DNA of 64,000 nt, taken from positions 1 through 64,000 of the forward strand of contig NZ_FNBG01000024.1 of the NCBI RefSeq assembly GCF_900102215.1, in the 5' to 3' direction. Numbering within the stretch: the stretch's first letter is position 1; every line of letters begins with the position of its first letter. The notes beneath the pieces are model-generated. The model searched no databases. It was not told where the DNA came from and saw only the letters and a list, made by a program, of their open reading frames with translations. Shown here in pieces: positions 54,103 to 61,747 of this stretch. The position numbers and the translations under genes were made by a program. The stretch is from Fontibacillus panacisegetis (GTDB taxonomy: Bacteria > Bacillota > Bacilli > Paenibacillales > Paenibacillaceae).

Positions 54103-54714
54103 ATGAATTCTTACGGTTTGTTGGCTGTCGTTGTCATCGGTTTGGCTTCCAATCTGGATAACGCAGGAGTAGGAATTGCTTACGGCGTTCGAAAGATACG
54201 CATTCCATGGTACTCCAATTTAGCTATTGCCATCATTTCTTTCCTTGCTACATTGTTGTCCGGACTGTTCGGGAATTGGCTCGCTTTCTGGATTCATCCC
54301 TGGATTGGACAGTTAATCGGGACCATCGTCATCGTTTCTGTGGGAGTGTGGGTACTGCTCCAGCCCTTCGTTGAGAAAAAAGCAGTTCCCCTCGATCATG
54401 AAACCAATCCAGTAACACGCCTGCTCAGAAATCCGGAAGAAGCGGATAAGGACAGCTCTAAATCCATCAGCCTTGGTGAATCAATTCTGCTGGGTATCGC
54501 TCTGGCTATGAATGCGCTGGCCGGAGGATTTAATGCGGGCATTACTCACTTAAATATATGGTATACCTCGCTGTCCGTAGGGGTGTTCAGTTTTGTATTA
54601 CTTGCACTTTGCGCCGAATTTGGAGAGAAGTATGCAGCAGAGAAATTAGGTAATCGAGCGACCATTATTTCCGGGCTTTTGCTTATCTTTCTTGGCATTC
54701 ATCAATTGCTGTAG
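54103..54714 (+). CDS. ytaF: Sporulation membrane protein YtaF (MntP-like)
   Basis: A 203-residue membrane protein with six hydrophobic segments arranged as two similar halves. VVIGLASNLDNAGVGIAYGV in the first helix and GIALAMNALAGGFNAGIT in the fourth carry the polar residues expected of MntP/YtaF-type exporters. B. subtilis YtaF is a sporulation membrane protein; the transported ion, if any, is unproven. It stands alone on the plus strand, with a weak GGGG site before the ATG. Confidence 0.85.
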   Translation: MNSYGLLAVVVIGLASNLDNAGVGIAYGVRKIRIPWYSNLAIAIISFLATLLSGLFGNWLAFWIHPWIGQLIGTIVIVSVGVWVLLQPFVEKKAVPLDHETNPVTRLLRNPEEADKDSSKSISLGESILLGIALAMNALAGGFNAGITHLNIWYTSLSVGVFSFVLLALCAEFGEKYAAEKLGNRATIISGLLLIFLGIHQLL

Positions 54715-54805
54715 TATTAGCCAATCGAAAATTTATATGATTAATATTTTAAATTCCAGATAAATCCTTAAATGATCGTATATTCCTTAAAATGATATAT
54801 TCCTC

Positions 54806-54866: not shown

Positions 54867-55808
54867 ATGAAATGGCTCTCCAGTTATCATCAAGACCTGG
54901 AACTTGCATTCGCAGAAGCCGCATCTATATTAGAAGCGCTGCCAGTAACACATAGACAACCTGCACTAGAGTTTCTCGATAAATTCCACCCGCTAAAAGA
55001 AGAACGTTCCAAAAACTACATATGTTATCTTCTTCCACTGTGGATGCACGAGCTGACCGGAGTTCCTCTTCATAAATGCAGGGAGTTTGCTGTAGCCAAT
55101 ATTTTTGGCATGCTGTATTACCAAATCATCGACGCCGTTATGGACGATCGGGATCAGGCTTCCACGAGCATGCTCCCTTTAGCAGAATTCATTCATCTGG
55201 AGTTTATTCATAAATATAGTCACTCGTTTCCCGCAACCTCTTCATTATGGGATTATTACAGAAAATACGTAGCTGAATGGGCTCAAGCTGTTTCTACAGA
55301 GAACAGTTCTGATTTCTTCTATGAAAACCCGGTACGTATGGGGCACAAGGCATCTCCGGTAAAGCTGTCTATTATAGCTCCACTTCTACTCTCTCATCGG
55401 GAAGAATTAATTCCGGAATTAGAAGAGGCTGTTGATACTGTTCTTATAACATTGCAGATGCTCGATGACTGGCAGGATTGGGAGAAGGATTTGTTAGAAG
55501 GCAATTACAATTCACTTGTATCCATGGTACAAACGGAGTGTGAAATTCCTAAGGACCGCCGGCCTACATCTGAGGAAATAAACCAGGCTATATATGTTAG
55601 AGGATTACTATCTACTTATGCTAATCGGGCAAATATACTTCATGTAAAACTTTCAAAAATACAGACTATAGTCCCTCATCTTTATGATTTCCATGCATCA
55701 CTACATAATAATATAGTAATTGGGGCTCAACACCATGAATCTGAAAGAAATTTGCTGTTACAAGGCGGACTAAACTATTATTTGTCGAAAATACCGAAAA
55801 ATTCCTAG
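54867..55808 (+). CDS. Class I isoprenoid-enzyme-like protein
   Basis: A 313-residue, mainly helical protein. Two aspartate-rich sites stand at the spacing expected for the class I isoprenoid fold: IIDAVMDDRDQ (Asp89, 93, 94, 96) and TLQMLDDWQDWEKD (Asp200, 201, 204). Such sites bind magnesium and prenyl diphosphate. It is not a clear chain-elongating synthase, since the first motif departs from DDxxD, and it has no membrane segment. ATG 54867 has an excellent AGGAGGTG site; upstream in-frame ATGs lack one. It is followed after 67 bases by an NHLP-type precursor peptide. I infer prenyl transfer to that peptide or terpene formation; neither is shown. Confidence 0.7.
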   Translation: MKWLSSYHQDLELAFAEAASILEALPVTHRQPALEFLDKFHPLKEERSKNYICYLLPLWMHELTGVPLHKCREFAVANIFGMLYYQIIDAVMDDRDQASTSMLPLAEFIHLEFIHKYSHSFPATSSLWDYYRKYVAEWAQAVSTENSSDFFYENPVRMGHKASPVKLSIIAPLLLSHREELIPELEEAVDTVLITLQMLDDWQDWEKDLLEGNYNSLVSMVQTECEIPKDRRPTSEEINQAIYVRGLLSTYANRANILHVKLSKIQTIVPHLYDFHASLHNNIVIGAQHHESERNLLLQGGLNYYLSKIPKNS

Positions 55809-55875
55809 ATTGCCCAAATATATAATGCTATACTTATGAGGTAAATATAACCATATTGAGAGAAAGGGTGATTCT

Positions 55876-56118
55876 ATGGCAACAGAGGCTCTTCACAATC
55901 AAGTTATTCAAAAAGCGTGGCAAGATCCTGATTTCAAAGCAAAACTTCTAGCAGACCCTAAAGCAGCAATTCAAGAAGCGCTCGGTATAGTAATTCCTGA
56001 GCATATCAGCTTAAAGGCCGTAGAAGAAAATTCCAATGAATTTTATCTCGTTCTTCCTCCGCAGCCTTCAAAAACAGTGATTGCTTCTGATGTTACTCCA
56101 CAGTTCCAATGGGCATAA
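55876..56118 (+). CDS. NHLP-family precursor peptide
   Basis: An 80-residue peptide of the nitrile-hydratase-like leader (NHLP) type, used by ribosomal peptide natural products. The leader shows VIQKAWQDPDFKAKLLADPK, AAIQEALGIVIPEHISLKAV and EENSNEFYLVLPP. The remaining core, about 17 residues after the LPP, has Ser, Thr, Asp and aromatic residues and ends QFQWA, with Trp79 next to last. There is no Gly-Gly cut and no cysteine. AAGGGTGA precedes the ATG. It follows the isoprenoid-enzyme-like gene; no cyclodehydratase, lanthionine or radical-SAM enzyme, protease or exporter lies within several kilobases. Confidence 0.8.
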   Translation: MATEALHNQVIQKAWQDPDFKAKLLADPKAAIQEALGIVIPEHISLKAVEENSNEFYLVLPPQPSKTVIASDVTPQFQWA

Positions 56119-56175: not shown

Positions 56176-58095
56176 TTATTCAATGGTGCTAATGCATACC
56201 TTTGGAAACTGAATAATCACTTCCGTCCCTATTCCTTTTTCACTTGCAAACTTGATACTTCCCTCCATTACTTCAATAATTCGGAGCGTCACCATTAACC
56301 CCAGACCAGTACCTTTCGTTTTGTTCGTAAAATATGGTTCTCCCAGCCTTGCCAATACCTCGGCCTCCATTCCTTCACCATTATCCTTAATGTGAATGTG
56401 TACTTTTTCGCCTTCTTCATAGGCCCAAATCTGGATTTCACCTTCGCCCTGCAGCGATTCAATGCTGTTCTTAATAATGTTAATGAAGGCTTGCTTGAAT
56501 TTTGAAGAATTCCCTCTGATATAAATATCATTAGGAATGTGCACGGATATTTCGCCCCCCTGCATATTGGCCATAGGGATTAAAATACCCTCAATATGGA
56601 TAAACTCATCCAAAATATTCAAATTTGTTATTACACCTGCTTCCGGCTTGGCAAAAGTCAAATAATCTGTAATGATCTCCGACGCCCGATCCAGTTCATG
56701 CATAGCCATATTCAAATAAACCTTCTCTGAAGGCTGTCTTTCAAGAAGAAGCTGAATAAACCCACGAGTAACTTGCAGAGGATTGCGTACTTCATGGGCA
56801 ACAGATGCTGCTAGTTCGCTAATGATTTCCATTCTTTCCGAACGTTGAAGCTCATTGTTGAACATTTCTAATTGTTTAGTATATTGTACAATTCTCTTAT
56901 GGTTTTCGGAAAACTTTCTGCCAAGAATAATTATCAATGAGATGAGGAAACATACGATCCCCCATTTCCATAGAAACAAGCTGTAATACGGATCAACTAT
57001 GTAGTAATATAGTAATTCTCCAATGCCAATTAATGCAAAAATGATAAAACCCATTGAAAAGATAATCGCATTTTTATCTCCCTGAACTGCATACTTGGTT
57101 GAGAAACAAATAAGCAGTATAAATTGTACTATCATTATTATGCCAAGCACTTGCAAAGATACGATATAGTAAAATCCGTATAATAGGACTTGGAAATTAG
57201 AAATAACTAGCAATAGGAAGCAAACTAAACAGAAACAAGAATAAATTGTTTGAAATATTCTGAAGCGTCGAACAATAGAATGAAGCCCCGAACCGAACGT
57301 TTTTTCAAAGAAGAAAGTAAATGTAGGCAATAAAATATACAGAGATATATCAAATAACACTGAATACATACCTCTCATTGACTGATGAAGCCATGCTGGT
57401 AAGGGACTATAAGTAATAACTAAAAATCCACTGGATAAGATTACGGCACATAGGGAAAGCCACATAGACAAATTCCCAGTATATAAAAACAAAGAGCATA
57501 CCAGCATAATTAGTGCAATAAAAATCAGCGTACTTCCCAGAATGTAAGTGGCTGTGTTATTACTGATAAAGCCCCTGATCATGTCTTGATACTTTCCAAC
57601 CTTGATTTGTTTCACAATACCAATGCTACTATCGTTTCGTTCCAAACCTACATAAACCTTCTGATGCGAATTAATTACACTAAGAGGTAAGAGCACCGTA
57701 TTATAACTCAGAGCAAAATTACTAACATTATCATATATATCAACTCCATCGACTTTAACTACCACATGAGTACCATAAATCCTTTCAAAAAAAATTGCGG
57801 CAGCCTTTTCATTTAAATCAGGCAATTCAAACTTAACCCATTGAGCAGAATCCCCCTGAGTTCTCTCTGTAACAGAATTACTTCCATCGACGTCAATCCA
57901 ACCGTCCATAGCGTCCAACTGATCTGTGGTAATATTCGAATCAAGCTCACTTACCCATTTTATTTGCCATTGATTAATGACATGCTCATCAACATGATTA
58001 TTCTCGGGAACTTCTAAAAGAAAAATACAAAAAGCAACTATAATAAGTACAACTATACTAAACAACACCCTATATAAAACTTTCATATCCTGCAT
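56176..58095 (-). CDS. Membrane sensor histidine kinase, 7TM-DISM type
   Basis: A 639-residue kinase. A first helix (about residues 8-28) leads to an extracellular domain of about 150 residues, then seven hydrophobic segments (about 182-392), a short linker and a HisKA/HATPase core. The phosphorylated His434 is in AASVAHEVRNPLQVTRGF; NIIKNSIESL, DNGEGM and GTGLGLMV follow. This matches the 7TMR-DISM plan joined to a KinB-like core. ATG 58095 or 58086 may be the start. There is no response regulator beside it, as for sporulation phosphorelay kinases. Its stop is 57 bases from that of the NHLP gene, tail to tail. Confidence 0.85.
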   Translation of the reverse strand: MQDMKVLYRVLFSIVVLIIVAFCIFLLEVPENNHVDEHVINQWQIKWVSELDSNITTDQLDAMDGWIDVDGSNSVTERTQGDSAQWVKFELPDLNEKAAAIFFERIYGTHVVVKVDGVDIYDNVSNFALSYNTVLLPLSVINSHQKVYVGLERNDSSIGIVKQIKVGKYQDMIRGFISNNTATYILGSTLIFIALIMLVCSLFLYTGNLSMWLSLCAVILSSGFLVITYSPLPAWLHQSMRGMYSVLFDISLYILLPTFTFFFEKTFGSGLHSIVRRFRIFQTIYSCFCLVCFLLLVISNFQVLLYGFYYIVSLQVLGIIMIVQFILLICFSTKYAVQGDKNAIIFSMGFIIFALIGIGELLYYYIVDPYYSLFLWKWGIVCFLISLIIILGRKFSENHKRIVQYTKQLEMFNNELQRSERMEIISELAASVAHEVRNPLQVTRGFIQLLLERQPSEKVYLNMAMHELDRASEIITDYLTFAKPEAGVITNLNILDEFIHIEGILIPMANMQGGEISVHIPNDIYIRGNSSKFKQAFINIIKNSIESLQGEGEIQIWAYEEGEKVHIHIKDNGEGMEAEVLARLGEPYFTNKTKGTGLGLMVTLRIIEVMEGSIKFASEKGIGTEVIIQFPKVCISTIE

Positions 58096-60512: not shown

Positions 60513-61256
60513 ATGAAAGGCGCTGCACTCGAAGTCGAAATATGTCTTCTTGCAGGCAAAATAATGCTTCAGAGCGGAGCAGAAACTTACCGTGTAGAAG
60601 ATACGATGATTAGAATGTCAAATTCGCTTGGTCTTAATGGATCACATAGCTATGTCACTCCGACCGGAATTGTATTTCAACCCGGTGAAGCACTGCCAGC
60701 GAAGCTGATTCGTATCGAGGAACGGACAACAAATTTACATAAAGTATCCGCAGTCAACGATATTTCACGCAAGCTTAGCAGCGAGACTATATCATCAGAA
60801 GAAGCTCATCAACTGCTTATACAAATTGACAGCTCCAAAAATGCCTACCCGCTTGCACTGCAAGTTGCTGCCGCCGCGATCGCAAGCGGATGCTTTACAA
60901 TCATGTTTAGAGGAAGCCTGACCGATTTCATTCCCGGGGTATTGTGTGGTGGTCTCGGATTTATATCCTATATCCTTCTGAATCAAGTATTTAAAATCAA
61001 ATTTTTCGCTGAATTTACCGCCTCATTCCTGATTGGCATTATGGCTATATTACTGGTTCGAGTTGGAGTAGGTGTCACAATGGATAAAATCATTATCGGT
61101 TCCGTCATGCCGCTTGTCCCTGGTCTGCTCATCACGAATGCAGTACGCGATCTTATGGCTGGACATCTCGTGTCCGGTTTATCGCGGGGCGCCGAAGCTT
61201 TTCTCACTGCTTTTGCTATCGGGGCAGGCATTGCTGTAGTGTTCAGCATTCTGTAA
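60513..61256 (+). CDS. Threonine/serine exporter, N-terminal subunit
   Basis: A 247-residue ThrE-type protein (DUF1212 half). The soluble first part has LLAGKIMLQSGAETYRVEDT and VTPTGIVFQPG; five hydrophobic segments follow, with GSVMPLVPGLLITNAVRDLM as a landmark. In C. glutamicum ThrE, both halves are one protein that exports threonine and serine; here they are separate genes. GAAAGGTGG precedes the ATG. The second half starts 18 bases on. Confidence 0.88.
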   Translation: MKGAALEVEICLLAGKIMLQSGAETYRVEDTMIRMSNSLGLNGSHSYVTPTGIVFQPGEALPAKLIRIEERTTNLHKVSAVNDISRKLSSETISSEEAHQLLIQIDSSKNAYPLALQVAAAAIASGCFTIMFRGSLTDFIPGVLCGGLGFISYILLNQVFKIKFFAEFTASFLIGIMAILLVRVGVGVTMDKIIIGSVMPLVPGLLITNAVRDLMAGHLVSGLSRGAEAFLTAFAIGAGIAVVFSIL

Positions 61257-61273
61257 ATACATAGAAAGGGGTC

Positions 61274-61747
61274 ATGTCTTACATGGTAATTACCCTGCAT
61301 TTGATTACAAGTTTTATCGCCTCGGGAGCGTTCGGTATTATTTTCAATGCACCAAAACGCACCCTCCTTCACTGCGGTATAGTTGGCATGTTAGGCTGGA
61401 TCGCATACATTGTGCTGGATTTTAGAATGGAAGCTATTTTCTCCACGGTAGCAGCGACATTCATTGTAGGAGTCATCAGTCAGTTATTTGCTAAATTATT
61501 CAAAAAACCTGTCATCATATTCAGCGTCTCCGGCATCATTCCGCTTGTTCCCGGTGGCCTTGCTTATGATGCGATGCGGAATTTCGTCGTCAATGAATAC
61601 AATGTTGCAATTCAGCTTGCCGCTCAGGCTTTTTTGATCTCCGGATCGATCGCTATCGGTCTTGTTATGTCTGAGGTGCTAAATCAGCTTCTACATAAAA
61701 TCCCATTAAAAATGCCGATTTGGAAGGCTAAGAAATTACCAAAATAG
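61274..61747 (+). CDS. Threonine/serine exporter, C-terminal subunit
   Basis: A 157-residue ThrE_2 (DUF3815) membrane protein with four hydrophobic segments and SGIIPLVPGGLAYDAMRNFV, which mirrors the PLVPG motif of the first subunit. ATG 61274 is only two bases from AAGGGG, so ATG 61283 (MVITLHLITSF) may be the true start. With the upstream gene it would make one exporter. Confidence 0.87.
   Translation: MSYMVITLHLITSFIASGAFGIIFNAPKRTLLHCGIVGMLGWIAYIVLDFRMEAIFSTVAATFIVGVISQLFAKLFKKPVIIFSVSGIIPLVPGGLAYDAMRNFVVNEYNVAIQLAAQAFLISGSIAIGLVMSEVLNQLLHKIPLKMPIWKAKKLPK

Follow-up and report, generated by a model that had tools for sequence, protein, structure and literature searches.

A diverged PalQ-PalX-PalP locus of Fontibacillus panacisegetis and a possible prenylated-peptide pheromone reporting to sporulation

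The window analyzed here, a stretch of 64,000 nucleotides from Fontibacillus panacisegetis, contains an enzyme gene, a precursor peptide gene and a convergent histidine kinase gene. Judged by homology, the enzyme and peptide genes are a diverged PalQ-PalX pair, a relative of the published Paenibacillus system, and the histidine kinase beside palX belongs to the module. We propose that PalQ-PalX-PalP is a ComX-like pheromone module in which a prenylated peptide feeds the sporulation phosphorelay, a reading to which we give about an even chance. PalQ would bind the NHLP leader of PalX and prenylate Trp79 at indole C3, probably with a geranyl or farnesyl unit; such chemistry has been demonstrated for P. 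alvei PalQ only (PMC10853753) and is presumed for the window enzyme. The leader would then be cut off, probably before Asp72, to leave approximately DVTPQFQ-W(prenyl)-A, and the mature peptide would be exported. PalP would read this peptide through its extracellular and seven-transmembrane (7TM) sensor and would pass phosphate to Spo0F and on to Spo0B-Spo0A, i.e., to sporulation. The peptide core, including the residues after Trp, and the sensor would change together between species, and for this step there is statistical support.

The PalQ system was described in 2023 by Miyata, Ito, and Fujinami, who may know tail-extended homologs (PMC10853753). According to the available text of that paper, PalQ from P. 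alvei prenylates the NHLP peptide PalX in vitro on its C-terminal Trp, at indole C3, cleavage of PalX by a lysate was demonstrated, the cluster also encodes the histidine kinase PalP, and the cluster and the C-terminal Trp are called conserved in Paenibacillus. The corresponding features of the window are as follows.

54867-55808, + strand: palQ-like gene for a predicted Trp prenyltransferase of the isoprenoid-synthase fold, 313 aa (identity to PalQ, fold model, tree)
55122-55124, + strand: codon of residue 86 (Gln in the window enzyme), a candidate specificity residue, possibly of single origin
55131-55148, + strand: first Asp-rich site, D89-D94
55455-55490, + strand: Q197 and the second Asp-rich site, D200-D208
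55826-55834, + strand: TGnTAT(A/G)nT between palQ and palX, shared by 14 of 14 aligned loci; perhaps an extended -10 promoter serving palX separately
55862-55872, + strand: palX ribosome-binding site GAAAGGGTGAT, in which GAAAGGGTGA is invariant in 14 of 14 aligned loci
55876-56118, + strand: palX-like gene for an 80-aa NHLP precursor, leader match at residues 5-66 (TIGR03793)
56089-56115, + strand: predicted core DVTPQFQWA, with the cut placed by analogy with T72/D73 of P. alvei PalX (PMC10853753)
56110-56112, + strand: Trp79, presumed to accept the prenyl group; Ala80 and the stop codon come next
56176-58095, - strand: palP-like gene for a histidine kinase, 639 aa, convergent to palX
56749-56796, - strand: phospho-acceptor His434 and the specificity residues QVGFQL (H+7, +8, +11, +12, +14, +15)

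An alternative in-frame start of palQ lies upstream, at 54792; the Met of the 54867 start aligns with the Met of P. alvei PalQ. The conserved TGnTAT(A/G)nT motif in the region 55806-55875 suggests a dedicated palX promoter, with which the peptide would exceed the enzyme; a simple consensus promoter scan did not report this site. In this genome the enzyme gene and the peptide gene are each single-copy (a second match to the peptide, with an E value of 0.9, contains stops and does not count). Neither an exporter gene nor a protease gene was seen adjoining palQ-palX-palP in the window. Directly upstream of palQ is a gene for a YtaF-like sporulation membrane protein (54103-54714, + strand; TIGR02840, 169.8 bits against a cut-off of 149.6), and a two-gene threonine/serine exporter, ThrE/ThrE_2, is found at 60513-61747 (+ strand).

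The window enzyme is 37% identical to P. alvei PalQ over 308 residues in a gapless alignment. It falls below every Pfam and NCBIfam cut-off, and no sequence relative in the PDB was found at E<=1. Its AlphaFold2 model (pLDDT 93.2) has the all-helical isoprenoid-synthase fold, and the best structure matches are trans-isoprenyl diphosphate synthases (2azj, E value 7e-4, TM score 0.62, 12% identity). Like the rest of the PalQ-PalX family, the enzyme has D89/D93, D200/D204, and Q197, the last of which was proposed to hold the acceptor indole of the substrate (PMC10853753). Among 150 enzymes compared, D89 and D93 are invariant, Q197, D200, D201, and D204 are present in all, and D208 is present in 149. 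The window peptide scores 65.4 bits against the NCBIfam NHLP-leader model TIGR03793 (cut-off 50.9) and ends in TPQFQWA, so that Trp79 is the penultimate of its 80 residues.

The first-pass annotation, made from the sequence alone, had described an enzyme with two Asp-rich sites followed by an 80-residue NHLP peptide ending in QFQWA, and both reading frames are as it stated; the TIGR03793 match and the fold model agree with it. It had also singled out Asp93/94 and Asp200/201: the second pair is found in 150 of 150 enzymes, whereas the conserved residues of the first site are D89 and D93, and D94 varies. Its observation that no other maturation gene accompanies the pair stands, as none was recognized beside palQ-palX, and its choice of Trp79 as the likely acceptor is consistent with the position of Trp throughout the family (see below). 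It overlooked the adjacent histidine kinase, which belongs to the module. The suggestion of a new kind of ribosomal peptide system does not survive: the window pair is homologous to PalQ-PalX, which was already published (PMC10853753), and we rejected a new RiPP class for this reason.

A contig scan yielded 224 relatives of the enzyme. Among the best 80 of these 224 (the named loci), a peptide gene on the same strand lies just 3' of the enzyme gene in 79, and a convergent kinase gene comes next in the same 79, with a median gap of 50 bp; the 79 include P. alvei DSM 29 (L232) despite its out-of-frame core. Thus, the pairing of enzyme and peptide genes goes beyond chance, and the linkage in other genomes on which the first reading had staked its proposal holds in 79 of the best 80 of 224. 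In P. nasutitermitis (L223; L068 is the same place) the enzyme gene has neither a peptide gene nor a PalP kinase in the available stretch. Two PalP-like kinases are present at 28 of the 80 named loci (e.g., L190, L205, and L207), and the second sometimes lies across the enzyme gene from the first (e.g., L208 and L229). The enzyme was detected in 326 of 394 genomes searched from the family of the window, mostly as a single copy. A wide spread in the phylum was considered and rejected: the enzyme was found in 6 of 398 genomes drawn, all six belonging to the same family, whose genomes in the draw were uncounted. One single-protein scan of viral contigs, with a reach limited to close relatives, gave no relative that would point to a viral origin.

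Two plasmid records carry the enzyme, one from P. cellulosilyticus and one from a cyanobacterium. The latter, from Tolypothrix sp. PCC 7910 (NZ_CP050446.1; L121:1-1115), encodes a distant homolog, 20% identical to the window enzyme, whose gene spans the start of the record and is missing from the gene table; the accompanying peptide is an Os1348-type NHLP with its sole Trp in an internal position (HVNWRVDL). Residues W59, D89, D93, W138, D200, D204, and D208 are kept in 52 of 52 rows of an alignment that includes this homolog.

For comparative work, 197 enzyme loci were reduced to 156 at 97% identity; this sample, which combines the top-scoring places with two completely searched genera, is not a random one. 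The enzyme tree, a quick one, has 153 rows (L098, L100, and L121 excluded). Trp is located seven or fewer residues from the C-terminus in 154 of 154 peptides from 149 loci, a count that excludes the broken frames of L232 and L100; a peptide match is absent at 5 of the 156 loci. In P. cellulosilyticus (NZ_CP054613.1; L123:5017-6502), five tandem peptide genes separate the enzyme from the kinase; their products end in YTWV, FVWI, YNWL, YVWF, and FIWT, with Trp constant and a different last residue in each copy. In the P. alvei DSM 29 assembly AMBZ01 (L232:6900-7330), the frame is lost in the published PalX core at a T run and the DNVRRFFW ending is absent, which is due to either a sequencing error or real slippage.

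The window peptide naturally ends in Trp-Ala. In P. alvei, Ala appended after Trp abolished PalQ activity, and a C-terminal Trp was needed (PMC10853753); a 2026 review repeats the loss with Ala and reports low activity for an internal Trp flanked by glycines (PMC13290415). The family feature of a C-terminal acceptor Trp does not hold for Trp79-Ala80, and by homology the window pair is placed as a PalQ-PalX variant, not as a C-terminal-Trp enzyme. If its product keeps the residue after Trp, unlike that of P. alvei, the window enzyme must tolerate an internal Trp. Such endings are common: over 150 scored loci (window and P. alvei included, the latter scored from PMC10853753; L089, L101, and L223, with no peptide match, also left out), 90 peptides end in Trp and 60 have one to six further residues. 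The tail state changes about 11 times on the quick tree (rows without a peptide not counted) and the group label 12 times, compared with 48 in shuffles; an alternative tree joining two extended clades fits at least equally well, which would make these counts slightly lower. Seven path-disjoint pairs rest on starred branches. The window falls in a 30-row clade (95*) in which all rows are extended, with endings WA, WS, WM, WE, WF, WH, WL, WD, WG, WGD, WGE, WGN, WGS, WGM, WGV, and WGEW around a fixed Trp.

Most bare-Trp enzymes (80 of 90) have Phe at residue 86. All 36 extended enzymes of the clade that includes the window have His or Gln there, and all 10 of a second extended clade have His. An explanation of the tail by convergent change at this single residue was dropped, as the path-disjoint pairs gave it no support (0.3 of 7). 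In the AU test, one clade for both extended groups was not rejected (p 0.905), and the tree constrained to it was better than the quick tree by 44 log-units. At residue 90, all informative pairs (2-4 of 7) change in the expected direction, but the p values are 0.125 or more. Residue 86 is a candidate positional-specificity residue, possibly of one origin only.

The window kinase resembles P. alvei PalP (43% identity, 627 aa). Its predicted layout is TM1, a beta-rich extracellular domain at approximately residues 29-168, seven TM helices, HisKA, and HATPase_c. The model (pLDDT 79.5, pTM 0.60) likewise consists of a beta-rich domain followed by seven TM helices, and there is no match to Pfam 7TMR-DISM models at E<=0.001; a structure search with this model returned, among the matches listed, kinase domains. 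The N-terminal half of PalP varies much more than the kinase domain does: mean column entropy falls from 2.56 for the ectodomain to 1.25-2.12 for TM helices 2-8 and 0.74 for HisKA. No receiver gene is near palP, the nearest being 13.4 kb away.

We take the KinA H-box to place the six specificity residues of such kinases at H+7, +8, +11, +12, +14, and +15. PalP has QVGFQL at these positions. The same set is found in 113 of the 117 palX-adjacent PalPs of full length, and each of the remaining four departs from it at one place. The published sets are TAGFQL in KinA and KinE, TVGFQL in KinB, TSGFQI in KinC, and TGGFQL in KinD (PMC6136694, Table 1); PalP matches KinB at five of six positions, and the first is Gln where all five Bacillus kinases have Thr. 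The genome of the window encodes 40 HisKA kinases, 36 of them readable. Only three of the 36 have GFQL/M, and none of the others lies as far from a receiver gene (distances of 13 kb and 43 kb, and for the third no receiver on its contig), a comparison limited by contig ends; two kinases that are each about 2.6 kb from a receiver have the near-miss sets TAGYQL and TSGYQL. KinB (3d36) is the nearest PDB chain to the PalP kinase domain by sequence (179 bits; the next has 107) and also by structure, with the top rows tied within Z 1 in one comparison. The same genome encodes Spo0F (L293, 175 bits) and a candidate Spo0B (L284) that has hydrophobic helices at its N-terminus; TM-type Spo0B is reported across Paenibacillus (PMC12826061). 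The lack of a nearby response regulator, together with Spo0F-type specificity residues, suggests that PalP phosphorylates Spo0F and thereby feeds Spo0B-Spo0A. Thus, the sporulation phosphorelay is the most likely output of PalP.

Were the peptide a signal, one would expect its receptor to change alongside it. A Mantel-type test associated the core with the ectodomain (0.20), 7TM (0.15), and HisKA (0.09), with all three values exceeding those of all 100 permutations; it used the best-scoring kinase per locus, which is not the palX-adjacent one in L208, L224, L240, L050, and L058. Because this test ignores relatedness, we replaced it with path-disjoint pairs drawn from 114 loci that have a full-length palX-adjacent kinase and one peptide (P. 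alvei excluded). There were 14 same-core and 22 different-core pairs, with core and pairs defined after data inspection. The median ectodomain difference is 0.138 in same-core and 0.385 in different-core pairs; for 7TM the values are 0.078 and 0.241. With PalQ and kinase-domain distances as covariates, the extra divergence in different-core pairs is 0.130 for the ectodomain and 0.109 for 7TM (both p 0.0002). Pairs that are identical in the five residues before Trp and differ only after it give p 0.0002-0.0016 (five or seven pairs, two ways of selection). In the seven tail-only pairs, PalP ectodomains differ by 23-58%, whereas the median for the 13 same-core pairs is 13% (p 0.0002, covariates). 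One-kinase loci alone (4-6 same-core pairs) give p 0.005-0.023. Over 200 random path-disjoint choices, the ectodomain/PalQ ratio has a median p of 0.0011 and a maximum of 0.024 for different-core pairs; for tail-only pairs the median p is 0.011, with values below 0.05 in 90% of choices.

The kinase domain, too, is more divergent when the cores are different (median 0.085 versus 0.031). The ectodomain/kinase-domain ratio is not significant (p 0.34-0.37; tail-only 0.25 and 0.09), the 7TM/kinase-domain ratio gives p 0.06 and 0.046 (tail-only 0.13 and 0.03), and in one-kinase loci all sensor/kinase-domain ratios have p above 0.3. Since kinase domains diverge too and these simple ratios are mostly non-significant, replacement of a whole receptor gene is as possible as point-by-point coevolution; by either route, receptor type follows peptide type. 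Physical linkage is a poor explanation, because conserved kinase-coding DNA sits between the 3' end of palX and the sensor-coding DNA.

Individual pairs of species with similar enzymes (PalQ/ectodomain/7TM/kinase difference, best-scoring kinase per locus) illustrate the pattern. L130 and L167, both KPNAVWS, differ by 0.20/0.12/0.05/0.03, and L130 and L178 (WS versus WM) by 0.14/0.40/0.24/0.04. The corresponding values are 0.25/0.22/0.13/0.08 for L179 and L173 (both WE), 0.22/0.45/0.21/0.05 for L152 and L173 (WGE versus WE), and 0.09/0.43/0.24/0.04 for P. brevis L185 and P. antibioticophila L172 (WGN versus WGEW). There are counterexamples: ectodomains differ by only 0.09 between L236 and L219 (WP versus WS) and by 0.10 between L214 and L194 (DANSVW versus NVNSVW). 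Overall, the covariation is as expected of a pheromone and its receptor, and what had been offered as "perhaps a signal" now has comparative support.

The covariation also bears on the view that the residues after Trp are trimmed before prenylation, so that the mature product would be a C-terminal-Trp peptide like that of P. alvei. On the one hand, this would agree with the loss of P. alvei PalQ activity upon Ala extension (PMC10853753); K39, the proposed contact of the C-terminal carboxylate, is present in the window enzyme, with no clear association with tail state across 150 enzymes, and Phe86 and Asp90 are kept, as in bare-Trp enzymes, at 13 of the 60 extended loci. On the other hand, no trimming enzyme is linked, and the sensors of the seven tail-only pairs diverge far beyond the same-core median. 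Because differences after Trp alone count, these residues are probably retained in the mature molecule, and the covariation speaks against simple tail trimming, which we consider rather unlikely.

NHLP precursors usually yield RiPP natural products, and PalQ-PalX might accordingly make a prenylated antimicrobial or surface-active RiPP, with PalP merely its regulator or self-sensor; a self-sensed bacteriocin could likewise coevolve with its sensor. Synthetic antimicrobial peptides prenylated by PalQ were more potent (PMC13290415). However, no immunity or export gene was recognized beside the three genes in the window, PalP resembles a sporulation kinase, and an enzyme that is widespread and mostly single-copy in the family fits signaling more than a variable weapon, which makes this alternative unlikely. 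Finally, the nearest folds are those of prenyl diphosphate synthases, as expected if the enzyme were a soluble synthase of terpenes or isoprenyl diphosphates and the NHLP peptide served another purpose. This we regard as very improbable, given that in vitro prenylation of PalX has been demonstrated for PalQ, a member of this enzyme family (PMC10853753), and that both the gene linkage at 79 of the best 80 of 224 loci and the Trp are conserved.

We therefore return to the pheromone proposal, the fuller form of which is Paenibacillaceae-wide PalQXP quorum sensing with pherotypes: a prenyl-Trp peptide, read on both flanks, including the variable tail, by the 7TM receptor PalP, would set Spo0F phosphorylation and couple density to sporulation, and the PalQ of the window's clade would be an internal-Trp prenyltransferase. 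We hold this version tentatively, at somewhat less than an even chance. Natural post-Trp tails, covariation of sensor and core, and Spo0F-type specificity of PalP go beyond the available PalQ text (PMC10853753), which names PalP without studying its function and gives none to PalX; covariation and specificity residues now yield a testable claim, namely that in a large family of spore formers a ComX-like pheromone reports to the sporulation phosphorelay. Beyond PMC10853753 and PMC13290415, the open-licence literature gave no published quorum-sensing or sporulation role, which is weak evidence of absence. PalQ is promoted as a strict C-terminal-Trp tool (PMC13290415), yet many natural relatives have a non-terminal Trp, and these tail-extended relatives are a ready set for locating the determinant of positional specificity.

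The closest known system is PalQ-PalX-PalP of P. alvei: the three genes are homologous over their length, and the NHLP precursor, the Asp-rich sites, Q197, the Trp near the C-terminus, and the adjacent kinase are shared, whereas the published core ends in Trp (PMC10853753) and the window Trp is penultimate. The early comparison with ComQ-ComX proved apt. In ComQ-ComX-ComP-ComA of Bacillus subtilis, an enzyme of the isoprenoid-synthase fold also prenylates a non-terminal Trp close to the C-terminal end of a small precursor, and a variable peptide is matched by a variable receptor sensor. The ComQXPA markers are PF00348 for ComQ, PF05952 for ComX, PF07730 for ComP with an adjacent ComA, and Trp in the last 5-10 residues (PMC4008528). 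The window Trp, residue 79 of 80, falls in that range; however, the window pair has no match to PF00348 or PF05952 at E<=1, the precursor has an NHLP leader, the kinase is of the HisKA type (PF00512) without PF07730 at E<=0.001 and its gene is convergent, and there is no adjacent response regulator, the nearest receiver being 13.4 kb off. An unusual com-like locus in P. curdlanolyticus was noted in the 2014 ComQXPA census (PMC4008528). ChrPC-type trans-IDS-like prenyltransferases share the isoprenoid-synthase fold and act on an internal Trp of ribosomal peptides, but they form their own similarity cluster, have a cyclase domain, and are set apart by the review's description (PMC13290415). KinB (3d36, Geobacillus) and other orphan Spo0F kinases resemble PalP in being orphan genes with a similar kinase domain, and PalP has five of the six specificity residues of KinB; it differs from them in the Gln at the first of these positions, in its N-terminal half, with an extracellular beta-rich domain and seven TM helices, and in being paired with a peptide-maturation locus.
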